A DNA stretch of 48,539 bases from Actinomycetota bacterium (GTDB lineage Bacteria > Actinomycetota > Geothermincolia > Geothermincolales > RBG-13-55-18). The notes below the pieces were generated by a model, which did no database searches, was not told the origin of the DNA, and saw only the letters and a list, made by a program, of their open reading frames with translations. The DNA lies in the NCBI GenBank assembly GCA_014360655.1, contig JACIXC010000019.1, forward strand, positions 1-48,539, in the 5' to 3' direction. The position numbers and the translations under genes were made by a program. Positions 3,450 through 47,920 of this stretch are shown piece by piece. The stretch's first letter is position 1, and each line of letters begins with the position of its first letter.

Positions 3450-3477
3450 CGGGTATCAATCCGCGATTTTCCTTCCT

Positions 3478-4383
3478 CCTGTCATTGCGAGGAGGCGCGC
3501 AAGCGTTCTTTTCCTGTCATTGCGAGGAGGCGCGCAAGCGTTCTTTTCCTGTCATTGCGAGGAGGCGCGCAAGCGCCCTTTTCCTGTCATTGCGAGGAGG
3601 CGCGCAAGCGCCGACGAAGCAATCCCGCCGGGAGTACGGAAAGGGCGCGGGTGCCGGGAGGGGCGGCAACGACCGGAGGGGATCGCTTCGTCGCTCCGCT
3701 CCTCCCGATGACGTTTCCGGGGGTCCCTCGCGATGACGGAGAATCACGCTTCCGGAGGAGATCGCTTCGTCGCTCCGCTCCTCGCGATGACGTTTTCATG
3801 GGCTGCCTGCGATGGCGTTTCCGGGGGTTACTCGCGATGACGTTTCCGGGGGTTACTCGCGATGACGTTTCCGGGGGTTACTCGCGATGACGTTTCCGGG
3901 CCCCTGTCATTGCGAGGAGGCGCGTAAGCGTTCTTTTAATGTCATTGCGAGGAGGCGCGCAAGCGCCGACGAAGCAATCCCGCCGGGAGTATGGAAAGGG
4001 CGCGGGTGCCGGGAGGGGCGGCAACGACCGGAGGGGATCGCTTCGTCGCTCCGCTCCTCGCGATGACGTTTCCGGGGGACCCTCGCGATGACGGAGAATC
4101 ACGCTTCCGGAGGAGATCGCTTCGTCGCTCCGCTCCTCGCGATGACGTTTTCATGGGCTGCCTGCGATGGCGTTTCCGGGGGTTCCTGTCATTGCGAGGA
4201 GGCGCGCAAGCGTTCTTTTCCTGTCATTGCGAGGAGGCGCGCAAGCGCCGACGAAGCAATCCCGCCGGGAGTACGGAGAGGGCGCGGGTGCCGGGAGGGG
4301 CGGCAACGACCGGAGGAGATCGCTTCGTCGCTCCGCTCCTCGCGATGACGTTTCCGGGGGTTCCTCGCGAAGACGTTTTGAGG
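3478..4383. repeat. Block of REP/BIME-like dispersed repeats
   Basis: This stretch has no gene. It is built from variants of a short element, GTCATTGCGAGGAGGCGCGC in one orientation and GATCGCTTCGTCG/CTCCTCGCGATGACG in the other. Around 3589-3720, 3942-4070 and 4219-4350 the two orientations flank a conserved centre (CGCCGGGAGTACGGA...GGCAACGACCGGAG), forming long imperfect palindromes of about 150 bp. Extra head-only copies lie at 3480-3560, and CGTTTCCGGGGGTTACTCGCGATGA units are repeated at 3820-3895. The same elements recur at 8090-8475 and in altered form at 47040-47920. Open frames across the block are repeat artefacts. Confidence 0.9.
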
Positions 4384-4385
4384 GA

Positions 4386-7300
4386 TCAGACGGGTATGGT
4401 GAAGCGGAAGGCGGAACCGCCCCCCTCGCGGGGCTCGTGCCATATCCTGCCGCCGTGACTGTCCACGATGCTCTTCCCGATGTACAACCCCAGGCCGAGG
4501 CCGGGGCCGGCGTGGTGCAGCACGTCCCCCACCTGGTAGAAACGCTCGAAGACACGCTCGCGCTCCTCCTCGGGGACGCCCACGCCGCGGTCCAGCACGG
4601 AAAAGACGACCGTCCCTTCGCCCCTCTCCGCCGTCACCTCGATGGGCGAGCCCGGCGGGGAATACCTCACCGCGTTGTCCAGGAGGATGATCAGCAGGCG
4701 CACCAGTTTCTCGGCATCCACGAAAGCCGTGCCCGGGTCGCCGGGGGGGCGGAAGGATATCTCCCTGTCCACCCCCTTCGCCCGCATCTCCTCCAGTGCC
4801 CTCTCGACCAAGGGAGCCAATGCCGCTTCCTTCTTCTCCAGCACCACGCGGCCGCGCTCAATGCGGGAGACCTCCAGGAGCTCCTCCACAATGCCCACCA
4901 GCCGGTCGGACCCCCTCTGGATGGCTCGCAGGGCCTCCTCCCGGTCCGCGGCGTCCATTTCCTCACCGTGCTTCTCCAGGGTCATGGCGTATCCCTTGAG
5001 CAGGGTGGCGGGATGCCTTAGCTCGTGGGCCGCGATGTCGAGGAAGTCGCGCATCTGCTCCGCCCGCCTCTCCAGCTCGTTCTCGTATGCCCTCTTGTCC
5101 GAGATGTCCAAGAGCGAGATGACGCTTTCGCCTATCCCGGGGAGCATGGACACGGTGATGATGGCGGGGATGGGACGGCCGGACCTGTGCCTGGCCACTA
5201 TCTCGTACCGGATGGGGCCCTCTATCTCCCCGTGCAGCAGCTTGCGGGAATAGTCCTTGACCCTCTCCACCTCCTCGGGCACGAGCAGTTCCATGTAGCG
5301 CATCTTGCCCACCATCTCCTCGCGCGTGTATCCGAAGATCCTCTCCGCCTCAAGGTTCACGTCCGAGATGGTGGCGTCCCGCAACACGTGGAACATGGCG
5401 GTGCCGGTGGCCTCGAAGGTGACGCGGTAGCGCTCCGCGCTTTCCCGCAGGGCCTGCTCGACCAGCCTGCGCTCGGTCACGTCGCGGGCTATGTTGGATA
5501 TCTCCACCAGGCGACCCTGCTCGTCCCGGATGGCGGCGCCGGTCATCTCGGTGACGATGACCGACCCGTCGCGACGCACCAGCCTGATCTCCTCGGTGTA
5601 CAGATCCTCCCCCGCGAAGAGGGCGCCCATGCCCGCGATGACCTTGTCCAGGTCCTCGGGGTGGATGATACCCAGCTCCAGCACGCTTTTTCCCAGCAGC
5701 TCTTCCTTATCGTACCCGACGGCCTCGCAGGCCCTGCGGTTGATGCTCACCAGCCTGAACTCGCGGTCGTATCCGAAGATGGCCTCGCCGGCGAAATCGT
5801 GGAGCAGGCGGTACCTGCCCTCCGACTCCCGCAGGGCGTCGAGGAGACGGCGATGTCGGAGGGCCTGCTCGATCTGGGCGCAGGAGAGCTCGAGGAAATC
5901 CCTCATCCAGCGGGGGACCTCTTCCATGCGCCGGGAAGAGACGACGAGGCAGCCCGCAGTTTCGCCCCGGAAGCGAATGGGAACGAAGGCCGCGCTTCTG
6001 GCGTCCTCCGGCACCGGCAATTCCCCGCTTCGCTCCGTCCCGGGAAAAGCCGCTCCCTCGAAGAAGAGCGATCTACCCTCAAGCATAGACAGGAAAACGG
6101 GGTTCTCCGGCTTGAGGTAATCCGTCAGGAGGGCCATCTCCTCGCCGATGCCCCGGTGGAAGCGCATCCTCAGCCCGCCCGTTTCCTCTTCCACCAGATA
6201 TATGGCAATACTTTCCATGCCGGTGGCGTGAAGTATCCCCTCCGCGGCCCTCTCCAGCACTTCCCGCAGGGAATAGTCACCGGCCACCATCCAGGCAAGG
6301 TCGCGCTGCACGCGCGTCATCCTCTCCGCCATCATGCGCTCGGTGAAATCGGTGATGAAACCCTCCAGGTAGGGCAGGTTTCCCTCCTCGTCCGGGATGC
6401 CCCTTCCCTGTTCCCATACCCACTTGAGCTCCCCGGAGGCATGGTGGATGCGGTAGATGAGCCGGAAGGGCTCCCCCCTTGCCAGTGCCTCCTGGACCTC
6501 CTCCCAGATCCTTTCCCGGTCGTCCGGGTGGACCAGGTCGGCGTAGGAAAGCACGGCGTTTCCCACCAGGTCGGAGGGGTCGTGCCCGGTGAGCTCGCGG
6601 CATCCTTCGCTGACGAAGAGCATGGTCCATTGTGGATCGTTGCGGCAGCGGTAGGCCATGCCGGGTAGGTTGCTCAACAGGACGGCCAGCTCGCGGCGGC
6701 TCTCCTCCAGCTCCTTTTCCATCCTTTTCCGCGCGGTGACGTCGCGGGCGATGCCCTCCAGGGCCACCAGCTCACCCTTTTCGTCGTAGACGGGGGTGTT
6801 CCTCTGCTCCGTCCAGATAACCGAGCCGTCCTTGCGGATCCAGCGCAGCACCACTTCCCTTCTGGGCTCGCCGCCCGCCCCGGCGGCTTCTTCCAGGATC
6901 TTCCTATCCTCGGGATGCACGATCTTGTAACCGAGCCAGGGATCCGCGTAATGCTCCTCCGGGGTATACCCGGTGATGGCGGTGGCCGAGGGGCTCACGT
7001 ACTCGAACCTCTGTTCCGGCTTCAGCCTGATGCGGTAGACGAGATCCTCGGCGTGCTCGGCTAAAAGGCGGAATTTCTCCTCCGATTCTTTCAGGGCGGC
7101 GGTGATCTTCGCCTGCGCGATGGCCCTCGCCAGCTGCGAAGCCAGCACCTCCATGACCTCCCTGGCCGGGGCGGGCACGGCGGCATCGCGGTGAGAAGCC
7201 GCGTTGAGGCATCCCAGCAGACGGCCCTCGTGGAACAGGGGGATCACCGCCAGGGACTTGAGCCCCTCCGCCTCTTTCGCCTCCGTCTTGGGAACCGGGA

Positions 7301-7985
7301 AGTCCCTGTATTCCACGTAAACCGGTTTCCCCTCGCGCACGATGCGGTGGTTGGCGGAGCCTTCGGCATAACGGTCCACCTCGGCAAGAAAAGCTTCCGA
7401 TAGCCCCCGGCTGCACCCCAGCACCAGGTCCCCGCTTTCCTCCTCCACCAGGTAGATCGCCCCCGCGTCAAGGTCGGCGGCATCGAGCACCGCCTCCAGG
7501 GCGAGGTCGAGGACTTCCTCGAGTTCCCGCGCCTCCCCCACCTTGAGCGCGAAATCCCTCTGTGCCCTGGTCATCCTCGCCGCCATCTCGCGCTCGGTGA
7601 CATCCCGGGAATTCACCACCAGTCCCTTCACCACGGGGTGGTCGAGGAGGTTCAGGGCCGTGGCCTCGTGCCAGCGCCAGGTGCCGTCCCTGTGCCTTAT
7701 CCTCTGCAGGGAATACCGGGCCACGCCGGGGCGCTCGATAGCGATGGCGAGATTGCGCCTGCTCTCCGCGAGGTCCTCGGGGTGGATGTACTCGAAGATG
7801 CTCCGCCTCTGAAATTCCTCGGGGGTGTACCCGAGGAGGCGCTGCACGGAGGGGCTCACGAAGGACACCCGGCCTTCTCCGTCAAGGACGACGATGAGGT
7901 CCAGCGCGTTCTCCACCAGGAGGCGGAAGTATTCCTCCCCGCCTCCGCTAACCTTCTTCCCCTTCCATCCCATGTCCATCCCCAT
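4386..7985 (-). CDS. Soluble multi-PAS/GAF sensor histidine kinase
   Basis: 1199 residues with no transmembrane segment. Domain order by eye: PAS (about 17-133), GAF (150-295), PAS (305-420), PAS (425-555), GAF (570-715), PAS (720-845), PAS (845-960), HisKA and HATPase_c. The phospho-accepting His is near residue 987 in AAHELRHP. The ATPase N box is LLDNAVRYSPP, G1 is DRGVGVP and G2 is GLGLGLYI. There is no receiver domain, so phosphate must pass to a separate regulator; the single-domain receiver at 14211 is one candidate. Five PAS and two GAF domains imply cytoplasmic small-molecule or redox sensing, ligand unknown. The gene is alone on its strand, bounded on both sides by REP-like blocks. 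Its catalytic end closely resembles the kinase at 16733. Confidence 0.9.
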   Translation of the reverse strand: MGMDMGWKGKKVSGGGEEYFRLLVENALDLIVVLDGEGRVSFVSPSVQRLLGYTPEEFQRRSIFEYIHPEDLAESRRNLAIAIERPGVARYSLQRIRHRDGTWRWHEATALNLLDHPVVKGLVVNSRDVTEREMAARMTRAQRDFALKVGEARELEEVLDLALEAVLDAADLDAGAIYLVEEESGDLVLGCSRGLSEAFLAEVDRYAEGSANHRIVREGKPVYVEYRDFPVPKTEAKEAEGLKSLAVIPLFHEGRLLGCLNAASHRDAAVPAPAREVMEVLASQLARAIAQAKITAALKESEEKFRLLAEHAEDLVYRIRLKPEQRFEYVSPSATAITGYTPEEHYADPWLGYKIVHPEDRKILEEAAGAGGEPRREVVLRWIRKDGSVIWTEQRNTPVYDEKGELVALEGIARDVTARKRMEKELEESRRELAVLLSNLPGMAYRCRNDPQWTMLFVSEGCRELTGHDPSDLVGNAVLSYADLVHPDDRERIWEEVQEALARGEPFRLIYRIHHASGELKWVWEQGRGIPDEEGNLPYLEGFITDFTERMMAERMTRVQRDLAWMVAGDYSLREVLERAAEGILHATGMESIAIYLVEEETGGLRMRFHRGIGEEMALLTDYLKPENPVFLSMLEGRSLFFEGAAFPGTERSGELPVPEDARSAAFVPIRFRGETAGCLVVSSRRMEEVPRWMRDFLELSCAQIEQALRHRRLLDALRESEGRYRLLHDFAGEAIFGYDREFRLVSINRRACEAVGYDKEELLGKSVLELGIIHPEDLDKVIAGMGALFAGEDLYTEEIRLVRRDGSVIVTEMTGAAIRDEQGRLVEISNIARDVTERRLVEQALRESAERYRVTFEATGTAMFHVLRDATISDVNLEAERIFGYTREEMVGKMRYMELLVPEEVERVKDYSRKLLHGEIEGPIRYEIVARHRSGRPIPAIITVSMLPGIGESVISLLDISDKRAYENELERRAEQMRDFLDIAAHELRHPATLLKGYAMTLEKHGEEMDAADREEALRAIQRGSDRLVGIVEELLEVSRIERGRVVLEKKEAALAPLVERALEEMRAKGVDREISFRPPGDPGTAFVDAEKLVRLLIILLDNAVRYSPPGSPIEVTAERGEGTVVFSVLDRGVGVPEEERERVFERFYQVGDVLHHAGPGLGLGLYIGKSIVDSHGGRIWHEPREGGGSAFRFTIPV

Positions 7986-8089: not shown

Positions 8090-8475
8090 GCCCGGAGGCG
8101 CGGGTGCCGGGAGGGGCGGCAACGACCGGAGGGGATCGCTTCGTCGCTCCGCTCCTCGCGATGACGTTTCCGGGAGTCCCTCGCGATGACGGAGAATCAC
8201 GCTTCCGGAGGGGATCGCTTCGTCGCTACGCTCCTCGCGATGACGTTTCCGGGGGTTCCTCGCGATGACGTTTCCGGGCCCCTGTCATTGCGAGGAGGCG
8301 CGTAAGCGCCCTTTTCCTGTCATTGCGAGGAGGCGCGCAAGCGCCGACGAAGCAATCCCGCCGGGAGTACGGAGAGGGCGCGGGTGCCGGGAGGGGCGGC
8401 AACGACCGGAGGAGATCGCTTCGTCGCTACGCTCCTCGCGATGACGTTTCCGGGGGTTCCTCGCGATGACGTTAA
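8090..8475. repeat. Second REP/BIME-like repeat block
   Basis: Contains one full copy of the palindromic repeat seen at 3478-4383 (about 8283-8450) plus partial and inverted fragments starting near 8093. It lies between the divergently transcribed kinase (start 7985) and the gene at 8564. The rest of the 578-bp gap holds only a short AT-rich stretch next to the kinase start and the promoter of the rightward operon. Confidence 0.88.
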
Positions 8476-8563: not shown

Positions 8564-8779
8564 ATGTTTCCATCTTATGCCAGGAAGGCACGGGAAGTGC
8601 TGGAGGGGGTCTCCGGACTCGCGGAGGAGGAGGATTTCCGCGAGCTGCTCTGCGGGGACTGCCCCTTCTACCATCACGGGGAGGAGGAAAACGAGGAATG
8701 CGGCAGTTACCGCATCCTCAAGACCCTGCTCCTGAAAGGGGCCCTCGACCTGGAGGCCACCCTCGATGCGCTCGACTGA
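8564..8779 (+). CDS. Small Cys-containing protein coupled to radical SAM gene
   Basis: 71 residues, MFPSYARKAREVL to LEATLDALD. It has a Cys cluster in the middle (C-x2-C-PFYHHGEEENEE-C) with two His between the second and third Cys, which could bind a metal or Fe-S cluster, and a predicted helical C-terminus. Start ATG 8564 has AGGGAGG nine bases upstream; an in-frame GTG lies at 8555. Its end overlaps the radical SAM gene by 14 bases, so the two are co-translated. No family recognised. By position it may be a partner or electron-transfer protein of the maturase (inference). It is too acidic and too long to be an obvious peptide substrate, though that is not excluded. Confidence 0.7.
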   Translation: MFPSYARKAREVLEGVSGLAEEEDFRELLCGDCPFYHHGEEENEECGSYRILKTLLLKGALDLEATLDALD

Positions 8780-9941
8780 GGCTTACCCCGTCCTCGCCCC
8801 CGGCGTCTTCCTCAAGCAACTGGAAACGGACTGCGTCTACAACGCGGGAAACGACGAGCTTTACGAGCTTTCCCCCGAAGCCTTCCATTTCCTCGCGCGC
8901 TGCGATGGGACCAGGGCCCTCGGGGATATGGATGTGGAGGTGGAAGAGGAGTTCCTCTCCTACTGCCTGGAGGAGGGCATCCTGGAGCTCGCCCACGAGC
9001 CCACCCCCCGCCCGGTGAGATGCGGCGTCAACGAGAGGCCCTCCCTGCGTTACCTCATGGTGGAGGTGACCGACCGCTGCAACCTGCGCTGCCGCCACTG
9101 CTACCTGGGGGACGCGGGACGCGACGACCTGGCTTGGGACACCCTGTACGGGCTCCTCGACGATTTCGACGACCTCGGGGGCCTGCGCCTGATGATCACC
9201 GGCGGTGAGCCCCTCCTCTATCCTCACTTCGCGGCCCTCAACGATGCGCTGGCCGGCCGCACCTACCGCGCCGTGCTCATAACCAACGGAACCCTGCTCA
9301 AGGACACCGACCTGCGTTACCTGCGCTTCCACGAGATCCAGTTCTCGCTGGACGGGCTGCAGGAAGGGCACGAGGTCCTGCGCGGCAAGGGGACCTTCCG
9401 CCCCGCCATGGCGGCGCTGGAGGAAGCCCTCGCGCAGGGCATCGACGTCTCGGTGGCCACGGTGATGCACCGGCGCAACCTCCATGAACTGGAAGACCTG
9501 GGCGAGTTGCTCTCCGGGCTGGGAGTGTCATCCTGGACCCTGGAGTTCCCCGTCCCCTCCGGGCGCATGGCGGAGCACCGCGACCTGATGCCCGGCGTGG
9601 AGGAATCCCTTGCCTACTTCGACCTGGAATGGGGATCCGGTCCCCACGAGGGCGCCGAGGGATACGCCTGCGGTGCGCACCTGGCTGCCGTGGACACCGG
9701 CGGCAGGCTCATCAAGTGCGGCTATTACCGGAACCCGAGCGGGGGCGCGGTGAGCGCCGGCCTGCGCCCGGCCTGGCGGAATCTCCCCAGGATGAGGCCG
9801 GAGGGCGCCTGCGCCGCCTGCCCCCTGCTAAGTGAATGCGGCGGGGGGTGCCGTTTCCGCGCCGAACTCCTTGAAGGGCCCGGGGGCCGCGACCCCCTCA
9901 TGTGCGCCCGCATGGGCCTCCTCCCCGGCAAACGCCCCTGA
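8766..9941 (+). CDS. Radical SAM/SPASM maturase with PqqD-like N-terminal domain
   Basis: 391 residues. Residues about 8-80 look like a PqqD/RiPP recognition element (GVFLKQLETDCVYNAGNDELYELSP has the fold's wording). The radical SAM motif is C105-x3-C109-x2-C112 (CNLRCRHC), with a glycine-rich GGEPLL SAM-binding motif after it. The C-terminus carries a complete seven-Cys SPASM pattern: C-x-G-x4-C, then C-x2-C-x5-C-x3-C, then a final C (LMC). SPASM enzymes of this type modify ribosomal peptides, often making thioether or C-C links, using auxiliary 4Fe-4S clusters. The start at 8766 overlaps the upstream small gene. A 21-residue Cys peptide gene lies 120 bp downstream, a likely substrate. Other maturation roles (anSME- or heme-biosynthesis-type) cannot be ruled out. 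Confidence 0.88.
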   Translation: MRSTEAYPVLAPGVFLKQLETDCVYNAGNDELYELSPEAFHFLARCDGTRALGDMDVEVEEEFLSYCLEEGILELAHEPTPRPVRCGVNERPSLRYLMVEVTDRCNLRCRHCYLGDAGRDDLAWDTLYGLLDDFDDLGGLRLMITGGEPLLYPHFAALNDALAGRTYRAVLITNGTLLKDTDLRYLRFHEIQFSLDGLQEGHEVLRGKGTFRPAMAALEEALAQGIDVSVATVMHRRNLHELEDLGELLSGLGVSSWTLEFPVPSGRMAEHRDLMPGVEESLAYFDLEWGSGPHEGAEGYACGAHLAAVDTGGRLIKCGYYRNPSGGAVSAGLRPAWRNLPRMRPEGACAACPLLSECGGGCRFRAELLEGPGGRDPLMCARMGLLPGKRP

Positions 9942-10006
9942 AAGACGGCTGCACGCGACCCCGGGGGCGGCGACACGAAAAAGTTCCGGAACGCGTGCTT
10001 TCGTCA

Positions 10007-10035
10007 TTGACACGGGGGTATAATAGAAATGTAAC
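10007..10035 (+). promoter_or_regulatory. Promoter of the small Cys peptide gene
   Basis: A perfect TTGACA (10007-10012) is followed after 17 bp by TGTAAC (10030-10035). A perfect TATAAT also lies at 10019-10024. Either could be used. Both place the start of transcription a short distance before the ribosome site at 10047, so the peptide has its own promoter separate from the maturase operon. Confidence 0.6.
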
Positions 10036-10060
10036 GACACACTACCAAGGAGGTGGTGAG

Positions 10061-10126
10061 ATGAGGATCACGAAGATCCCGAGAAGGAAGGGCGGAACCT
10101 GCAAGTGCAATAAGAGCTGCGGCTAG
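10061..10126 (+). CDS. 21-residue Cys-rich peptide, candidate RiPP precursor
   Basis: ATG 10061 to TAG 10126. The peptide has a basic N-terminal half (MRITKIPRRK), then a Gly-Gly, then TCKCNKSCG with three Cys. A near-perfect ribosome site AAGGAGGTG sits five bases before the ATG. A promoter-like region lies upstream and a strong hairpin terminator directly downstream, so it is a complete single-gene transcription unit; this is why I accept such a short frame. It lies 120 bp downstream of a PqqD-like/radical SAM/SPASM gene on the same strand. The double-Gly before the Cys segment resembles leader-core boundaries, though the leader would be very short. Inference: substrate of the maturase, giving a cross-linked small peptide. 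Alternative: a metal-binding micropeptide. Confidence 0.6.
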   Translation: MRITKIPRRKGGTCKCNKSCG

Positions 10127-10137
10127 CACGCCCTGCA

Positions 10138-10167
10138 GGGAGGGGGCCAACACGGCTCCCTCCCTTT
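10138..10167 (+). terminator. Rho-independent terminator after the Cys peptide
   Basis: An 11-bp GC-rich stem (GGGAGGGGGCC with GGCTCCCTCCC, one G-T pair), loop AACAC, then TTT. It begins 12 bases after the peptide stop codon. Confidence 0.8.
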
Positions 10168-10281
10168 ACGTCGCCCGCCGACCGGCGTTGTTTTCCATTA
10201 CTTGCCATACGCTCCCGCTGCTTTCCCGCGAACATCAACCACCCACCCCAGGGGCTGCCATAATATACCATCATTTACCAT

Positions 10282-11340
10282 TCACTCCCGCTGCAGCGAG
10301 GACATGAACTCCTCCAGAGTGGGAACGCCGCTCCTCTTCTCCCGCCGCCGCAGGGAGATAGCCCCGCCGGTGCAGTTGGGGACGCACACCCCGCATCCCA
10401 GGCACTCCTCGCGGTCCACCCTGGCCAGCTCGTGTTCGTCCAGCCTCACCGCCCCTACCGGGCAGCGCTCCTCGCACTCGCCGCAGCCCACGCACAGCTC
10501 GCGGTCCACCCGGGCCACGTAACTCGAGGGGTTCACCGCGTTCTCGAACCCCAGCTCCCTGCGGCTGTGCAGGAAAACGCAACAGCAGGAGCAGCAGCAG
10601 CACAGGGTGGATATCTTTCCCTGGTGATTGTCGACGGTGAAGACCAGGCCGGCCTCGTGCGCCTCTTCCAGCTTGCGCACCGCTTCCTCCAGGGTCACGG
10701 GCTTCCCCATGCCCTGCTCGACGATGTACCTCCCCATGGACCCGAAGTGAAAGCAGTTCTCCCTCTCGTGCTCGCAGCCCTCCCCCACGTAGGCCTTCAT
10801 CTGCCTGCAGGGGCAGTATGCGACTGCACGGAAGGAAGCCCCCTCCACAAGCTCCTTGGCCGTCTCGAAGGGGAGCACCTCCGACGTCTCGTTCACGTCC
10901 TCCTCCACCGGCACCACCCTGACCAGCGGCAGCTCGCGGTCGGCGATCTCCCTTCCCCAGGCGTTTGCCAGGTACCTGATCCACAGGGGGGCCAGCCTGC
11001 GCGCCCTCTCGTCGTCCCTGCCCGGCCAGAAAGGCGTTTCGGAGAAACCCACCAGGGTGGGCAGCAGGCGGTACCTGGCGACGCCGTCCTTGACGCTGCG
11101 GAACACCGTGCCCTTGGAGGCCATGGCATCGAGCATGCCGCGCAGCTCATCCTCCCGCATGCCGGTTGCCCTCGCGATCTCCGGAAGCGGGGTGTTGAAG
11201 AAGGGCAGCCTCACCGCCAGGCGCGCCTCCTCCGGCGTGAAGAGAACACGCAATATCTCGAGGAGCTCCTCGCTCATGGGCGCCCCGACCGGCATCCTGT
11301 CCAGGTGTTCGGCAAGGGCGCGATAGACCTCGTCCTTCAT
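10282..11340 (-). CDS. 4Fe-4S ferredoxin-domain protein with winged-helix-like N-terminus
   Basis: 352 residues from ATG 11340, which follows GGGGTGA; an in-frame extension reaches 11382. Residues about 25-95 read as a winged-helix region (LPEIARATGMREDELRGML). A Cys-rich middle follows: CPCRQM (176-179), GC and NC (189, 196), and an unusual CCCC-S-CCC run at about 247-254. Two standard 4Fe-4S motifs close the protein: C283-x2-C286-x2-C289-x3-C293 and C313-x2-C316-x2-C319-x3-C323. Soluble, probably a redox protein. The combination is seen in anaerobe proteins annotated as 4Fe-4S binding or DNA-binding ferredoxin-like, but the reaction is unknown. It is convergent with the peptide unit and stands alone. 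Confidence 0.8.
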   Translation of the reverse strand: MKDEVYRALAEHLDRMPVGAPMSEELLEILRVLFTPEEARLAVRLPFFNTPLPEIARATGMREDELRGMLDAMASKGTVFRSVKDGVARYRLLPTLVGFSETPFWPGRDDERARRLAPLWIRYLANAWGREIADRELPLVRVVPVEEDVNETSEVLPFETAKELVEGASFRAVAYCPCRQMKAYVGEGCEHERENCFHFGSMGRYIVEQGMGKPVTLEEAVRKLEEAHEAGLVFTVDNHQGKISTLCCCCSCCCVFLHSRRELGFENAVNPSSYVARVDRELCVGCGECEERCPVGAVRLDEHELARVDREECLGCGVCVPNCTGGAISLRRREKRSGVPTLEEFMSSLQRE

Positions 11341-11555
11341 ACCCGTCACCCCTGAGAGATGGATTCCCCTCAATTTTATCATTTCCGGGATAACGTCAAG
11401 CAGAGCGACACGGGCCCGTTTTTCTTACGCCCGCGCTCATGGCGCGCGACCCCGCCCTTAAGGGCGGACGGCCCGTGCCAAGAAAGGGAAGCGCCCGGCG
11501 ACAAGCACGCTCGTCATGCCCACGCAACCGCGCCCGATGCCTTTCGCCCGCCTAG

Positions 11556-14748: not shown

Positions 14749-16743
14749 TCACCCGCGGGGGCGCAGGGTGAATTCGAAACAGGCCCCTCCGTCGTTATAA
14801 GCCCGGATGTCGCCCCCGTAGGCCTCCACCAGCAGCTTCACCGTGGCCAGCCCCACGCCCGTCACGCCCTCTTCCCCGCGCGAGAAGGGCTCGAAGGCGT
14901 CTTCCAGGCGGCCGGGCTCGATACCGGGGCCGTTATCCCGCACCAGGTAACGCAGGGTTCCGTCCCTCTCCCGGGCCAGCTTCCGTATCTCCACCAAGCC
15001 GCTCCCGGTAAGGACGAACCTGATGGCGTTATCCAGCAGGTTGGAGAATATCCTGTACATGTCCACGCGGTGGGCGGGAAGGCGCCCGAGGTCCTCGTCC
15101 GTTTCAACCCTTACGCCCTTTTCCCGCAAGACCCCTTCCCTTTCCTTCACCACCTCGGCGACTAAGGCGTTAAGGTCCACTTCCCCCACGACAGGCGAGA
15201 GTGCCCGATCGCGGGAGATGCGCAAGGTCTCCTCGATGAGGTAAATGGCCTGCCGCGACGAGGAGATGATGGAGGAGATGACCTCGCCTACCTCCTCCCT
15301 GCCGGCCCCGGGGACGGCAAGCAACCTCCGCAGCGTCTCCGCCGCGGCCGTGATATTGGCGATGGGCGCCCTGAGGTCGTGCGACACCGCGTGCGCGTAG
15401 GCCTCGAGTTCCTCGTTTATCCTGCGCATCATCTCCTCGCTCCGCACCCTTGCGGTGATATCCACCCCCAGCCCGTAGAAGAAATCCAGCGCGCCGCCGT
15501 CGCGAAGGACCGGTTTCCCGTGCCACTCCACGACGATCTCGCGCCCGTCCTTCGCCCTGACACGGTTGATGTTGACCCTCGGAGTGCCGGATTTCACCAG
15601 GGCCTCGAATACCTTCGCCAGCCCCGCCCTGTCCCCGGGAGGCACGAACTCGCGCAGGTACTCCTTCCCCACCACCTCCTCCCTGGTGTAGCCCAATTCC
15701 CTGAGCATCATCTCGTTCATGTTCAAGGTCTTTCCCCGCGGGTCAATGGCCACGAAAAAGACGGGGAGGGAGTCGATGAGCTCGCTGCTGAAGTGCCTCT
15801 CCCACAGCAGGTCCTCCCGCAACCCGCGCTCAACCTCCAGGTTGTTCAGCCAGCGTTCCAGCTTCGCCTCCGCCACGTTCCCGCCCAGGTACTCCTCGGG
15901 AGGCAGGTAATAGAAGTTCTCGTACAGGCGGCCGCCCACCACCACCAGGGGGTGGGTGGTGACCACCTCGAGCAGAAGATCGGCGCCGAAAGCCCTGCGG
16001 TCGTACTGGCATATGGCGAGGCACATGCTGCCCGGGAAGAAGCGGTTCAGCTTGGCCTCGTATTCCATGAGCCTACGAGAGCCGGGCAATCCCCTGAGCG
16101 CCCAGCTCATCTCCCCGCTCACCCGCAGGGCGGCGTAGCCTTCCTCGAGGGCCCTTTCCGTCTCGGCGCGCAGGAGCTCGATCATGCGGTCGGGGTCGAA
16201 GGTCCCTCCCCTCGTGTACGCCTCGGAGGAGGTTTGCACGACCAGCTGCCCGCGCTCCAGGAAGGGGGCAGGGTCGACCCCCTCTTCACGCAGGTAAGCC
16301 AGGATGGTGGAGGCCGTGTTCTCATCCGTGATGCAGAGGACCTTGTGCCCCTGCTCAAGGCCCCGGCGCAGGAAGGGGGTCAGCAGTGAGCGGTGTTCCT
16401 CCTCGCTTTCATAGATGCAGCACAGGTGTTCTCCGGGCTCCAGGTGCTCCGGGCTTCGCAGCTCCCGACGCCGCGTGTCCGCTCTCTTTACGCCTTTCCC
16501 CGCCTTCCTGCCTCTCCTTGGCCCGTTCCGCCCGTTCTTGCTTCGCATCATCCGCTTCTCGCCTTGTCCGGTCCTGCCTCGTCCCGTCCCCGTTCCTTCT
16601 CTCCCGACTCTTCCTTCCTTTTCTCCCCAGCCCTTTCGCCCTTCCTTTCCTCTTCCCTCGCCTGCCCCGTCTCCAACCCCCTTTTTCTCTCGCCCATCCT
16701 TCCGCCCGCGCCTCCCTCGCCCCCTCACGACCTCAGGCTTCAT
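14749..16743 (-). CDS. MEDS-PAS sensor histidine kinase
   Basis: The core begins with a MEDS (DcmR-type sensory) domain of about 190 residues (HLCCIYESEEEHRSLLTPF onward), then a PAS domain (SLPVFFVAIDPRGK), HisKA with phospho-His in AVSHDLRAP, and HATPase_c with N box LLDNAIRF, G1 DNGPGIEPG and G2 GVTGVGLATVK. MEDS domains are associated with methanogen/methylotroph sensing proteins; ligand unknown. No membrane segment. Start is uncertain: ATG 16743 overlaps the end of the upstream kinase gene by 11 bases, but it adds about 65 residues made almost only of Gly, Arg, Lys and Glu. ATG 16551 (MMRSKNGRNG) would remove most of it. The two kinases are probably co-transcribed. Confidence 0.87.
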   Translation of the reverse strand: MKPEVVRGRGRRGRKDGREKKGVGDGAGEGRGKEGRKGWGEKEGRVGREGTGTGRGRTGQGEKRMMRSKNGRNGPRRGRKAGKGVKRADTRRRELRSPEHLEPGEHLCCIYESEEEHRSLLTPFLRRGLEQGHKVLCITDENTASTILAYLREEGVDPAPFLERGQLVVQTSSEAYTRGGTFDPDRMIELLRAETERALEEGYAALRVSGEMSWALRGLPGSRRLMEYEAKLNRFFPGSMCLAICQYDRRAFGADLLLEVVTTHPLVVVGGRLYENFYYLPPEEYLGGNVAEAKLERWLNNLEVERGLREDLLWERHFSSELIDSLPVFFVAIDPRGKTLNMNEMMLRELGYTREEVVGKEYLREFVPPGDRAGLAKVFEALVKSGTPRVNINRVRAKDGREIVVEWHGKPVLRDGGALDFFYGLGVDITARVRSEEMMRRINEELEAYAHAVSHDLRAPIANITAAAETLRRLLAVPGAGREEVGEVISSIISSSRQAIYLIEETLRISRDRALSPVVGEVDLNALVAEVVKEREGVLREKGVRVETDEDLGRLPAHRVDMYRIFSNLLDNAIRFVLTGSGLVEIRKLARERDGTLRYLVRDNGPGIEPGRLEDAFEPFSRGEEGVTGVGLATVKLLVEAYGGDIRAYNDGGACFEFTLRPRG

Positions 16744-18802
16744 CCTCCGAAGAGACGCCACCTCCCCCCTCGGCCGGCGTCAGGGGGAGGGTGAAGGAGA
16801 AGACGGTCCCGCCCCCCTCCCTGGGTTCATTCCATATCCTCCCACCGTGTCTTTCCACGATCTCGCGCGCTATGAAAAGCCCCATGCCCATTCCCGGGGT
16901 GGAGTGGTGCAGGGCGTCCTCGACCTGGTAGAAGCGCCGGAAGACCTTTTCCCTCTCCCCTTCCGGGATCCCCACACCGCGGTCGCGGACGGAGAGGAGA
17001 AAGGCCGTGCCGTCTTTCCCGGCCTCGATCTCCACCACGGAACGGGGCGGCGAGAAGGAAACCGCGTTCTCCAGGAGGATGAGCAGGACCTCCAGCAGCC
17101 TGTCCGTATCCGCCTCCAGTACCGTCTCTTCCCGGGGCAGGCGGAGCTCGAAATCGTTGTCGAAGCCTCGCCGGCGCATCTCCCGCACCGCTTCCGTCAC
17201 GACGGCCCGCACATCCGTGGGGCGTTTCTTGATCGTGAAGCGGCCTCTCTCGATTCGCGCTATGTCCAGGAGCTCGGAGACCAGGCGCGTTAGGCGGTCC
17301 ACGCCCCGCCCTATGGCCTGCATGAACTCCTCCCGTTGCTCGTCTCCCAGCTCCTTCCAGCGCTCGCTCAGGCTGGTCACGTAACCCTTGATGACGGTGA
17401 TGGGGTGGCGCATCTCGTGGGAGGCAACGTCCACGAAATCCTTGAGCTCATCCTCGTGGCGCAGCCTCTCGAGCTCCACGGATATCACCCGGGCCAGCGT
17501 CCCCGCCGTCTCGACGTCCCCGGCGCTCCATTCGCGAGGCTCCCGGTCATAGGCGGCGAGGTGCCCCGCCGCCTCCCCTTCCGCCGGCACCGGCACAAGC
17601 AGGCAGGAGCGGAAAGCGAAGCGGGATACCAGGGGATCCCGGTGCGAGCCGGGAACCAGGGAGAGATCGGGGAAAGCCGCGTAACCTTTTTCCCGCAACT
17701 CGTTCCAGGTGCGAAGCACCCCCTCCGCCTCTCCGTCGGGCAGGGCGAGGAACCTCTCCTCTCCCGCCAGGGTGGTTATGAGCGTGTGCCGTCCTCTCGC
17801 GAAAAGGTACAGGGCCGCGAGTTCACAACCCAGTGTCTCCCGCGCTCCCTCGAGCAGGGAAAAGATGTTTTCCATGGCGTCCGTGCCCAGGCCGAGGATC
17901 ACGCGGCTCACCTTGTCCCGGTGTTCGCGGGACCTCTTCGACTCCGTGATGTCGAGGGCGGTAAACACGGTCCCGGCGGAAAGGTCGCGGGGGTCCAGGA
18001 AGGTCGAGCTCAGGATGACGTCTATGATCCGCCCGTCCTTGCGCCTCCACCTGGTCTCCAAGGAACCCACGCCCCTCTCGGCGATATCCCGGTACTTCAC
18101 CTCTCCCACGCGCCTGTATTCCTCCTCGTCGGGGTAGAGGATCCTGGCGCTCCTTCCCACCAGCTCCTCTTCGCGGTAGCCGAGCATCTCGCAGAACCTT
18201 CCGTTCACCTGGAGGATGGTCCTCTCCGGGTAAGAGACCATGCCGATGCCGACCGGGGCGGCTCGGAAGATGCCGGCCAGCTCCGATTCCCTCTCCTGCA
18301 ACGCCCTCTCCGCCCGCCTGCGCTCGGTGATGTCGATGGCCAGCTCGAAGCGCGCGTCGCGCCCGTCCGGCCAGCGGATGAGGCGGTCAACGATGAGGTA
18401 ATCCCGGTCCAGCACCGGGTTGTGGTATTCCCAGTGGTGAGCCCGACCTGGGTTTGCCAGGAGGATGGGGTTGGTGCAGAAGGAGCAGGGCTCATCGAAA
18501 CCCTGGAACTCACGGTAGCAGATGCCTCCCGTGGGGTCCTTCCCGAACCTCTCCTTCAGCGCCCGGTTACAGAAGAGTATCTCGTGGCTCTCGGGATCGG
18601 ACACGTAGATGATCTCGTCGATGCTGTCGAAGATGGAGAGGAGCTGTTCCCTCTCGAGGTCGGCATCCTCCACCGCCGCGCTCAACCTGGAAAAAGAGTG
18701 CTCCAGCTCCTCCACGCGTTTCCGCAGGGCAGCGATCTCGGCGAGGAGCTCCTCCCGGCTCTTTTCTGCCTCCCCGCCCGTCCCGTTCTCCAGCATCGCC
18801 AT
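16733..18802 (-). CDS. PAS-PAS-GAF sensor histidine kinase
   Basis: 689 residues, cytosolic. A short coiled coil (about 12-45) is followed by a PAS domain (50-165) that contains a CxxC (EPCSFCTNP), a second PAS (170-295), a GAF domain (305-445), HisKA with phospho-His near 462 (VASHEMRHP) and HATPase_c. The N box is LLENAVSFSPP, with Glu where Asp is common before Asn. G1 is DRGVGIP and G2 is GMGMGLFI. The catalytic half closely resembles the 1199-residue kinase (FYQVEDALHHSTPG against FYQVGDVLHHAGPG), so these are paralogues with different sensory parts. The CxxC in the first PAS hints at redox or metal sensing (inference). Its end overlaps the MEDS kinase start. Confidence 0.9.
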   Translation of the reverse strand: MAMLENGTGGEAEKSREELLAEIAALRKRVEELEHSFSRLSAAVEDADLEREQLLSIFDSIDEIIYVSDPESHEILFCNRALKERFGKDPTGGICYREFQGFDEPCSFCTNPILLANPGRAHHWEYHNPVLDRDYLIVDRLIRWPDGRDARFELAIDITERRRAERALQERESELAGIFRAAPVGIGMVSYPERTILQVNGRFCEMLGYREEELVGRSARILYPDEEEYRRVGEVKYRDIAERGVGSLETRWRRKDGRIIDVILSSTFLDPRDLSAGTVFTALDITESKRSREHRDKVSRVILGLGTDAMENIFSLLEGARETLGCELAALYLFARGRHTLITTLAGEERFLALPDGEAEGVLRTWNELREKGYAAFPDLSLVPGSHRDPLVSRFAFRSCLLVPVPAEGEAAGHLAAYDREPREWSAGDVETAGTLARVISVELERLRHEDELKDFVDVASHEMRHPITVIKGYVTSLSERWKELGDEQREEFMQAIGRGVDRLTRLVSELLDIARIERGRFTIKKRPTDVRAVVTEAVREMRRRGFDNDFELRLPREETVLEADTDRLLEVLLILLENAVSFSPPRSVVEIEAGKDGTAFLLSVRDRGVGIPEGEREKVFRRFYQVEDALHHSTPGMGMGLFIAREIVERHGGRIWNEPREGGGTVFSFTLPLTPAEGGGGVSSEDEA

Positions 18803-19460: not shown

Positions 19461-20927
19461 ATGGCGGAAGAAGGATCGAGGGTCGCTTCCGGGGACTATT
19501 TCCGACGCCTCATAGATTACGCCCTGGACGTCATAACCGTGCTCGACGGGGAGGGCAGGGTTATGTACAATAGTCCCTCCCTCAAGCGGATCCTGGGTTA
19601 CGAGCAGGATGAGCTGAACGGCAGGTCGTGCTTCGATTTCGTGCACCCCGAGGATGCGCCTGAGGTGCTGAAAGCCTTCTATGAGAGCAGGGAGAAGCCC
19701 GGCGTTTCGGAGACGGTGGAATACCGCTTCCGGCACAAGGACGGGAGCTGGCGCTACCTGGAATCGGTGGCCAGCAACCTCATCCAGGACCAGGTGGTGC
19801 GGGGACTGGTGGTCAGCTCCCGCGACGTGACCGACCGCAAGCGGATGGAGATGGGGCTTCGCGAGTCCGAGTTGATGCACCGTGGCCTGATCAGCATATC
19901 CCCGGACGCCGTGACCGTCTCGGACCTCGAGGGCAACATAACCTACGTATCGCCCCAGACGCTGAAGCTGCACGGCTTCAAGCGCGAGGAGGAGATGCTG
20001 GGGATGAACGCCATACGCCTGGCGGCCCCCGAGGACCGCGAGAAGGCCCTGGCCATATACCAGATGACCCTGGAGGAAGGGGCGGTGAAGGGCGCCGAGC
20101 TCGCCGCCCTGCGCCGTGACGGCAGCCGCATCATGGTGGAGATGAACATCACCCTCGTCCGCGATGCCCATGGAGAGCCCCGGGCCCTGGTGGCCTTCAC
20201 GCGCGACATCACCGATAGGAAAAGAATGGAAATGGAGCTCCAGAACCGCAACGAGGAGCTGGAGGCCTTCGCCCACACCATATCCCACGACCTCCTCACC
20301 CCGGTGGCCATCGTGGAGGGTTACGCCAAGGCGGCCCTGGAGGCGGACGCAGAAGGCCGCGCGGAAGCGGAGAGGGAGTGCCTGGAGGCCATCGCGCGGG
20401 GGGCGAAGCGCATGAGCGAGCTCATCACCTCCCTCCTGCAGTACGCGCAGGCCGGCCACGCGGACCTGGAATCGCTGAGTGTGGATTGCGAGGAAATTCT
20501 CCTGGAAGTGCTCATGGACCTCGAGGAGGAGATCAGGAAGGCCGGCGTTTCCATCTCCATCCAGGACCACCTGCCCGCGGTGAAGGCGGAGCCGGTGAAG
20601 CTGCGGCAGGTCTTCTCCAACCTCATAGGTAACGCCCTGAAGCACATGGGCGCGGTGAAAAACCCGCGCGTAGAGGTGGGAGCCGCGCGGCGGAAAGGGC
20701 TGGTGACCTTCCACGTGCGTGACAACGGCGTGGGTATCCCCCCCTCCATCCAGCGGCAGATCTTCGAGCCCTTCAAGCGTTTTTCCCTGGAGGGGACCCC
20801 CGGCCTGGGGATCGGCCTCTCCACCGTGAAACGCGCGGTGAGGACCTGGGGCGGGGACACCTGGGTGGAATCCACGCCCGGGGAGGGGACCACCTTCTAC
20901 TTCACCGTCCCCGCCGCGGAGGATTGA
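19461..20927 (+). CDS. PAS-PAS sensor histidine kinase
   Basis: 488 residues, cytosolic. PAS 1 (about 11-128) closely resembles the first PAS of the 1199-residue kinase (YFRRLIDYALDVITVLDGEG against YFRLLVENALDLIVVLDGEG). PAS 2 spans about 138-256. HisKA has the phospho-His at residue 276 (TISHDLLTP). HATPase_c has N box IGNALKHMG, G1 DNGVGIPP and G2 GLGIGLSTVK. No receiver or membrane segment. The HDLLTP variant and the 'EELEAFAHTISHDL' lead-in are typical of phytochrome-like/PAS kinases. Start ATG 19461 has only a weak GGGAAG upstream. Transcribed away from the kinase pair; partner regulator unknown, with the CheY at 14211 possible. Confidence 0.9.
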   Translation: MAEEGSRVASGDYFRRLIDYALDVITVLDGEGRVMYNSPSLKRILGYEQDELNGRSCFDFVHPEDAPEVLKAFYESREKPGVSETVEYRFRHKDGSWRYLESVASNLIQDQVVRGLVVSSRDVTDRKRMEMGLRESELMHRGLISISPDAVTVSDLEGNITYVSPQTLKLHGFKREEEMLGMNAIRLAAPEDREKALAIYQMTLEEGAVKGAELAALRRDGSRIMVEMNITLVRDAHGEPRALVAFTRDITDRKRMEMELQNRNEELEAFAHTISHDLLTPVAIVEGYAKAALEADAEGRAEAERECLEAIARGAKRMSELITSLLQYAQAGHADLESLSVDCEEILLEVLMDLEEEIRKAGVSISIQDHLPAVKAEPVKLRQVFSNLIGNALKHMGAVKNPRVEVGAARRKGLVTFHVRDNGVGIPPSIQRQIFEPFKRFSLEGTPGLGIGLSTVKRAVRTWGGDTWVESTPGEGTTFYFTVPAAED

Positions 20928-38812: not shown

Positions 38813-38867
38813 CTTTTGCTGGTGGCGAGAGGCGGAATCGAACCGCCGACGCCAGGATTTTCAGTCC
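38782..38867. repeat. attR: 86-bp direct repeat completing tRNA-Phe
   Basis: Carries the element-borne tRNA-Phe 3' half and following hairpin. It differs from attL at two positions outside the tRNA; the tRNA part is identical, as needed to keep the tRNA functional. Crossover is probably in the anticodon-stem region, the end of the shared sequence. Confidence 0.92.
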
Positions 38868-38895
38868 TGCGCTCTACCGACTGAGCTATCTCGCC
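38820..38895 (-). tRNA. tRNA-Phe (GAA)
   Basis: 76 nt with encoded CCA. The acceptor stem is GGCGAGA/TCTCGCC, the anticodon stem is CAGGA/TCCTG and the loop is CTGAAAA with anticodon GAA. The T arm has GTTCGATTC. It is the insertion site of the element; its 3' half is the element's copy. Confidence 0.97.
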
Positions 38896-38929
38896 GCGCT
38901 ATATCGACTCCCAGCGGGAGCGAGTACTC

Positions 38930-39007
38930 TGGCGGAACCGACGGGATTTGAACCCGCGATCTCCGGCTTGACAGGCCGGCGTGTTAACCTGACTACACCA
39001 CGGCTCC
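38930..39007 (-). tRNA. tRNA-Asp (GTC)
   Basis: 78 nt, CCA encoded. The acceptor stem is GGAGCCG/CGGTTCC with one G-T pair. The anticodon loop is CTGTCAA within CCGGC/GCCGG, reading GTC. It lies between tRNA-Glu and tRNA-Phe, all on the minus strand. Confidence 0.97.
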
Positions 39008-39127
39008 GCTTCATCAAGAGAGCTCCGCGAGCGCTTCCTCGCCCACGAAAGGCCTCACCGGCCTCCATCCAAACGGGCCTTCACCTAAATAGTATCCGAA
39101 GTCATCCCCTCGGACAACGATATATGC

Positions 39128-39203
39128 TGGTGCCCCCAGCGGAATTCGAATCCGCGTCACCGCCTTGAAAGGGCGATATCCTAGGCCTCTAGACGATGGG
39201 GGC
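39128..39203 (-). tRNA. tRNA-Glu (TTC)
   Basis: 76 nt, CCA encoded. The acceptor stem is GCCCCCA/TGGGGGC. The anticodon loop is CTTTCAA with anticodon TTC. It is the first gene of a three-tRNA leftward operon (Glu, Asp, Phe). Confidence 0.96.
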
Positions 39204-46985: not shown

Positions 46986-47920
46986 CTCATATTGCCGTCA
47001 TCGCGTCCCTCTTATTACAGTCATCGCGTCCCTCTTGTTACAGTCATCGCGAGCGTAAGCGAAGCGATCTCCTCCGCCCCGAAAACGTCATCGCGAGGAG
47101 CAGAGCGACGAAGTGATCTCCTCCGCCCCGAAAACGTCATCGCGAGGAGCAGAGCGACGAAGCGATCTCCTCCGCCCCGAAAACGTCATCGTGAGGAGCA
47201 GAGCGACGAAGCGATCTCAACCGGAGCCCAGGCGAGATTGCTTCGTCGGCGCTATCACGCCTCCTCGCAATGACGTAAACACCGAGTGCTTGCGCGCTTC
47301 CTCGCCATGACGTAAACACCGGGTGCTTTCACGCCTTTTCGCCATGACGGAAGACCGGTGCCTTCACGCCTCCTCGCCATGACGTAAACACCGGGTGCTT
47401 GCGCGCTTCCTCGCCATGACGTAAACACCGGTGCTTTCACGCTTCCTCGCCATGACGTAAACACCGGTGCTTTCACGCTTCCTCGCAATGACGTAAACAC
47501 CGGGTGCTTGCGCGCTTCCTCGCCATGACGTAAACACCGGGTGCTTGCGCGCTTCCTCGCCATGACGTAAACACCGGGTTCTTTCACGCTTTTTCGCCAT
47601 GACGGAAGACCGGTGCCTTCACGCCTCCTCGCAATGACGTAAACACCGAGTGCTTGCGCGCTTCCTCGCCATGACGTAAACACCGGGTTCTTTCACGCTT
47701 TTTCGCCATGACGGAAGACCGGTGCCTTCACGCCTCCTCGCAATGACGTAAACACCGGGTGCTTTCACGCCCTTTCGCCATGACGGAACACCGGTGCTTT
47801 CACGCTTCCTCGCCATGACGTAAACACCGGGTTCTTTCACGCCTCCTCGCCATGACGGCACACCGGGTTCTTTCACGCCTCCTCGCCATGACGGAAGACC
47901 GAGCGCCGACCGCCGTGCCG
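46986..47920. repeat. REP fragments and a tandem array of 35-37 bp units
   Basis: 46986-47220 has GTCATCGCGT/GTCATCGCGAGGAGCAGAGCG-like repeats (five or six copies with ATCTCCTCCGCCCCGAAAAC between them). 47265-47905 is a run of about 18 head-to-tail units of the type ATGACGTAAACACCGGGTGC followed by TTGCGCGCTTCCTCGCC, varying at about one third of positions. Units abut with no unique spacers, so it is not CRISPR. The unit is related to the GCGAGGAGGCGCGCAAGCG element of the other repeat blocks. Frames across the array (REEARKHPVFT type) are artefacts. No gene. Confidence 0.9.

Follow-up and report, generated by a model that had tools for sequence, protein, structure and literature searches.

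Does the 21-residue cysteine peptide encoded downstream of a radical SAM/SPASM enzyme in an Actinomycetota genome serve as the substrate of that enzyme, and, if so, what might the product be for? The question arises from a contig of 48,539 nucleotides (JACIXC010000019.1; the whole of this stretch is called the window below), for which an earlier note, made without database searches, had proposed a candidate RiPP system. The three reading frames lie where that note had placed them (Table 1). The frame of a small three-Cys protein overlaps that of the enzyme by 14 nt, and 119 nt separate the end of the enzyme gene from the start of the peptide.

Table 1 Features of the cassette, with their coordinates in the window.
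Feature	Position	Strand	Basis
Small three-Cys protein, 71 aa, proposed enzyme helper	8564..8779	+	Conservation of C30/C33/C46; co-occurrence with enzyme
Radical SAM/SPASM maturase, 391 aa	8766..9941	+	PF04055, E 2.6e-20; AlphaFold2 model pLDDT 93.4
Maturase N-terminal RRE-like domain, residues 1-88	8766..9029	+	Predicted fold; Pfam PqqD match weak
Radical SAM CxxxCxxC, residues 105-112	9078..9101	+	Invariant in 34/34
SPASM region with seven Cys, residues 302-380	9669..9905	+	Six positions invariant in 34/34; the seventh moves by one
Putative -10 element TATAAT of the peptide's own promoter	10019..10024	+	ATAAT identical in 14/14 family loci; absent from the consensus-scan list
Hairpin CACTACC-AAGGA-GGTGGTG enclosing the Shine-Dalgarno	10040..10058	+	Near-invariant in 14 loci; fold z -2.4 (10024-10075)
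Precursor peptide MRITKIPRRKGGTCKCNKSCG, 21 aa	10061..10126	+	Co-occurrence with enzyme; pN/pS
GC-rich terminator-like hairpin	10137..10165	+	12-pair stem; z -3.75 (10124-10175); similar hairpins in family relatives

We surveyed 216 genomes from three classes of Actinomycetota: 31 from the class of the window, a sample of 149 from the class of G058 and 36 from the class of G330. The enzyme was present in 41 of them, namely 22/31 at an orthologue threshold of E ≤ 1e-40 in the window's class, 17/149 at E ≤ 1e-70 in the second class (37/149 at E ≤ 1e-25, other radical SAM families included) and 2/36 in the third. Named records matched by sequence include Candidatus Solincola and Candidatus Geohydrothermomicrobium, for which NCBI taxonomy gives the class Candidatus Geothermincolia; we infer that this is probably the class of the window too. 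A complete peptide reading frame was found in 39 of the 41 enzyme-bearing genomes (21/22, 16/17 and 2/2 by class). In G029, an AAAGGAG site is present together with the first 11 codons (MHIKKVAKKAA) of the divergent peptide, whose frame is then cut by the contig end; in the 74% complete genome G130 the enzyme is present and the peptide was not found, its contig also having been scanned. The search of related genomes for tiny reading frames near the enzyme, which the earlier note had called for, placed the peptide on the enzyme's own contig in 34 of the 39 genomes. In 31 of these it lies downstream on the same strand, at a distance of -13 to +378 nt; in the other three it is divergent and upstream of the small-protein gene. 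Five genomes (G007, G012, G015, G026 and G111) carry it on another contig, and in G012 its orientation is opposite to that in the sister genome, with no copy in the ~0.9 kb examined 3' of the enzyme.

Specificity was assessed in a sample of 396 Actinomycetota genomes, 28 of them enzyme-bearing. The pattern TCKC..SC was matched in 27/28 enzyme-bearing versus 10/368 other genomes (Fisher p 2e-32, uncorrected for kinship). The matches judged in eight of the ten enzyme-less genomes (G221, G326, G495, G474, G453, G391, G347 and G079) included no like peptide; those of G214, G253 and one of the two in G474 are outside this judgement. In another scan for the peptide, both extra pattern matches (G079, G107) proved spurious, and no peptide without the enzyme was found among the matches checked. 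Viral contigs gave two matches to a peptide pattern, both due to chance as judged by translation. The presence of the peptide tracks that of the enzyme, and the three genes are conserved together. Two results had been named in advance as refuting the proposal, and neither materialized: the enzyme is not widespread without the peptide, and the C-terminal Cys pattern is conserved, with CKC..SC retained across three classes even where enzyme identity falls to 32%.

The peptides are 20-21 residues long and carry three or four Cys each. They share one layout: a start with I-x-K (I-K-K in families f2 and f3), a mostly basic stretch, and C-K-C-x-x-S-C, after which the chain ends or continues by one Gly. 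The residue ahead of the first Cys is Thr, except for Leu in G137 and Phe in G101. The earlier note had described an ending CKCNKSCG after Gly-Gly; the core motif is indeed conserved, but the Gly-Gly is confined to the window's order, Ser-Ser or other residues standing in its place elsewhere, and we dropped it as a cleavage mark for that reason. In the window's family (14 loci), pN/pS comes to 0.08 overall and to 0.03 over the last ten residues compared; the corresponding values for 13 loci of family f27 are 0.21 and 0.06 (the test omits L155, a near-copy that is cut). The peptide is under strong constraint at the protein level. It has no match in NCBIfam at E values up to 1 and none in Pfam, and a full-text literature search for the exact core strings (CKCNKSC, CKCSSSC and related) returned no paper. 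A thiopeptide precursor was set aside on score alone, one member reaching 15 bits where the cut-off is 25. An RNA element in place of a peptide was also rejected because the core varies at synonymous sites, with the caveat that, in the window's family, the hairpin around the ribosome site is conserved too. Rfam, applied to the window at gathering scores, reported three tRNAs only and nothing at the peptide; three tRNA genes are found at 38823-39203 on the minus strand.

The peptide had been credited with a promoter of its own, an optimal ribosome site and a strong terminator. The ribosome site stands: in the 14 family loci the Shine-Dalgarno is strong and near-invariant and is set in a hairpin downstream of the -10 element. 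The promoter is supported by the identity of ATAAT in every one of these loci, amid otherwise variable DNA, but not by consensus scans of the plus strand, which list neither a sigma-70 promoter nor a terminator at the peptide. Likewise, the GC-rich hairpin that follows the peptide stop is real as judged by its folding score, but its T-run is short in the window. We infer, in the absence of expression data, that in the window's family the peptide would be transcribed as a unit of its own. At 10040-10075, the loop of the hairpin holds the ribosome site, and across the 14 loci the first codons show no change, synonymous sites included; this arrangement may point to translational control.

The maturase gave one further, insignificant Pfam match in addition to its radical SAM domain, and no NCBIfam model listed for it reaches its cut-off. 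The complete CxxxCxxC and seven-Cys SPASM that had been claimed for it are borne out by conservation in the 34 homologues: C105, C109 and C112 never vary, nor do SPASM Cys 302, 318, 352, 358, 362 and 380, the exception being Cys 349, which in other families is shifted by one position, giving a CxC spacing. An RRE/PqqD-like domain is common, though not universal, in radical SAM/SPASM RiPP systems. Here, the description "PqqD-like" rests on the predicted fold, strands followed by helices, and finds little support in Pfam, where PqqD is matched in only 2/34 members and weakly (best E 0.038). The closest solved structures are SkfB (Z 26.7), SuiB (26.1), anSME (23.4), CteB (22.7), ChlB (21.3) and PqqE (20.5). 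The SkfB and SuiB alignments extend across nearly the whole chain and begin at model residues 7-12, thus including the RRE-like N-terminal part; identity to the enzyme, however, is just 15-18%. The substrates of SkfB and SuiB have different cores.

In a tree of 34 enzymes, the classes separate and families f27, f4/f5 and f58 each remain whole, while f1 and f3 are intermixed at a single weak fork. Enzyme alignment A1 was built without L021, L030 (stop reported inside), L034 and L035 (partial), and alignment A3 additionally without L025 (masked letters), L142 and L144 (partial). Because relatives such as G013 and G063 are without the enzyme and the tree is mostly taxonomic, the data would fit a mainly vertical inheritance with losses. 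No second copy was seen in the scanned genomes; the enzyme profile had no match among viral contigs, and the enzyme had none among plasmids. One rival reading makes the product a sactipeptide-like bacteriocin, for which the nearness of the enzyme fold to the sactisynthase SkfB could be cited. A core that is near-invariant across classes, apparently vertical inheritance, and the lack of a recurrent immunity gene, exporter or protease all oppose it, and we regard a bacteriocin as highly improbable.

How does the cassette compare with known systems? In ranthipeptides, which include the SCIFF peptides, the thioether is made to a non-alpha carbon; in sactipeptides, Cys is joined to the alpha-carbon. 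PQQ biosynthesis (PqqA/PqqD/PqqE) resembles the cassette in a precursor of ~20 residues and in the structural match to PqqE, but the enzyme scores only 56.1 bits against TIGR02109 (cut-off 381), the RRE-like part is fused to the enzyme, and the peptide core has no Glu/Tyr pair. Mycofactocin (MftA/MftC) likewise pairs a short precursor of near-invariant C-terminus with a radical SAM enzyme that always accompanies it, and similar evidence led to its recognition (PMC3023750). The cassette is set apart by a score of 76.2 bits against TIGR03962, for which the cut-off is 265 (93.2 bits for L143), by a Cys core in place of the mycofactocin C-terminus, and by the other maturation genes not recurring. 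Sactipeptide cores comprise 26-44 residues after a leader (PMC8326336), in contrast to a whole cassette precursor of only 20-21. The same source describes the SCIFF ranthipeptides (CteA/CteB, Tte1186), in which a lineage-wide conserved Cys precursor is paired with an RRE-bearing radical SAM/SPASM maturase, and holds that a distribution so wide within Clostridia speaks against an antimicrobial function (PMC8326336). In conservation, the SCIFFs come nearest to the cassette, and CteB is among the structural matches; unlike the cassette precursor, however, SCIFF has six Cys in ~45 residues, and the cassette belongs to another phylum and has an extra three-Cys protein. A 2022 survey reports 22 previously unreported radical SAM pathways (PMC9062424), and the cassette family may appear in its supplement.

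The 71-residue Cys protein had been put forward as a co-translated partner. It does constitute a third conserved part: in the phylum sample it occurs in 28/396 genomes, the identical set to the enzyme's 28, its gene lies upstream of the enzyme gene and often overlaps it, and C30, C33 and C46 are invariant in 33/33 relatives. It was not found, however, beside the enzymes of the most divergent members, G137, G130 and G101. The predicted model, at pLDDT 90, shows four helices and places the Cys within or beside a less certain loop. Searches of the PDB gave nothing by sequence and nothing by fold with E under 0.001; the window's copy has no NCBIfam match at E up to 1 and none in Pfam, and the weak matches of other members are inconsistent and never significant. 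On this basis, it would represent a protein family new to Pfam and NCBIfam. Its invariant Cys and its overlap with the enzyme gene could also mean that it is itself what the enzyme modifies, the tiny peptide being a separate metal- or thiol-binding peptide that is merely nearby. We consider this quite unlikely, given that the peptide tracks the enzyme even from other contigs and when divergent. Moreover, the peptide persists in G137 and G101, two of the three genomes in which the small protein was not found nearby, which makes the small protein more likely a helper than the substrate.

Taken together, two marks of a radical SAM/SPASM RiPP system are present: a short reading frame that tracks its maturase, and a maturase with CxxxCxxC and SPASM Cys. 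The observation of the earlier note is confirmed and its RiPP interpretation supported; with no product or binding data, we put the probability that this is a RiPP-type cassette with the peptide as substrate at about 0.9. The family is real and conserved and is probably new, no match having been found in NCBIfam, Pfam or the papers searched.

The genomic neighbourhoods bear on what the product might do. No transporter, protease or immunity gene recurs among the loci examined, in agreement with the earlier remark that no transporter or protease is adjacent; neighbourhood genes were taken as longest ORFs only, and because this calling is crude a small peptidase could be missed. In 11/14 loci of family f27, the cassette is divergent from an oxidoreductase set of cytochrome c, Fe-S, NrfD and PhsA-like molybdopterin genes; of the remaining loci, G105 and G156 end at the contig, and in G069 the oxidoreductase gene is ~10 kb off. 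Dependence of this molybdopterin operon on the cassette was considered and dropped, because the oxidoreductase, found in 18/149 genomes by its large subunit, is without the cassette in 4 of them. In G137, the cassette lies upstream of Fe-S, NrfD, ActD, cytochrome c and molybdopterin-type genes, and in family f58 a DUF255 thioredoxin-like gene precedes it. Such contexts, together with the near-invariant core and the mainly vertical descent, would suit a product that works in anaerobic metabolism as a redox or metal cofactor comparable to PQQ or mycofactocin, in which CKC..SC, once modified, would bind metal or cycle electrons for hypothetical partner enzymes. Against this count the four genomes that have the f27 oxidoreductase without the cassette and the neighbours in the window's own class, which are unrelated to respiration: PAS kinases, HGD-D, or a cluster of cell-division type, the last assigned by eye. 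The neighbourhoods lean toward redox metabolism, without proof, and since the contexts differ between families they name no function; we hold the cofactor reading only tentatively.

Alternatively, the product could be a secreted or surface signal, as has been suggested for the SCIFF peptides of Clostridia; PMC8326336 cites a 2020 paper that deals, by its title, with SCIFF and quorum sensing. A strongly conserved, lineage-wide Cys precursor is the SCIFF pattern too, and sensor kinases adjoin the cassette in the window's family. Other families do not retain these kinases beside the cassette, however, and no exporter or protease recurs, leaving a signal a doubtful proposition and a weaker one than the cofactor. 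Large ORFs resembling PAS-domain sensor kinases occupy 4386-7985, 14749-16761, 16733-18802 and 19461-20927 of the window; the PAS and kinase domains were demonstrated for the relative L066.

Several other elements were noted around the cassette. A convergent 366-aa protein at window 10282-11382, with two 4Fe-4S motifs and a CCCCCSCCC run, adjoins it in 4 of the clustered loci. REP-like repeat arrays (GGGATCGCTTCGTCGCT...) occur at 3476-4469, 8097-8471 and 47153-47218, with 10 matches at ≤1 mismatch and none expected. One array stops ~90 nt upstream of the small-protein gene, and the cassette of the relative L007 has a Y1 (REP-type) transposase nearby. Family f27 has a YlbF/YmcA-like protein convergent with the peptide (L134 5268-5657 and relatives), with Cys-rich tails. 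Its best NCBIfam match is HcsL (halo-CC-star), below cut-off, and a literature search on halo-CC-star returned no paper.

For the RiPP-type cassette with the peptide as substrate, a working model can be outlined. The precursor would be expressed strongly and apart from the other genes, on a transcript of its own, as inferred from the conserved promoter, ribosome site and hairpin. Its basic I-x-K start would act as the leader, docking as a strand on the RRE-like domain. A 5'-deoxyadenosyl radical, aided by the SPASM clusters, would then modify the C-K-C-x-x-S-C core, most likely by linking a Cys through a thioether to a nearby residue, for instance Thr, Lys or Ser, and the three-Cys protein could assist the enzyme by donating electrons or clusters or by acting as an adaptor. 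The product would be retained in the cell for a conserved cofactor-, metal-ligand- or signal-like role, as opposed to that of an arms-race antibiotic. That the cassette combines Cys chemistry with intracellular retention appears likely to us, though less assured than its RiPP nature, both the chemistry and the role being inferred.

What the mature peptide does in these deep-branching Actinomycetota can be proposed only as a possibility that falls short of even odds: it may be an undescribed housekeeping cofactor, in which a radical-modified CKC..SC core of about ten residues would bind metal or carry electrons for partner enzymes, with the three-Cys protein helping in its synthesis. To our knowledge, few peptide-derived molecules serve the cell rather than fight competitors (PQQ, mycofactocin and possibly SCIFF). 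The precursor described here is short enough to escape gene callers, and peptide and enzyme together are small enough for a single co-expression experiment; the cassette is a strong candidate to join this scarce group of cell-serving molecules.
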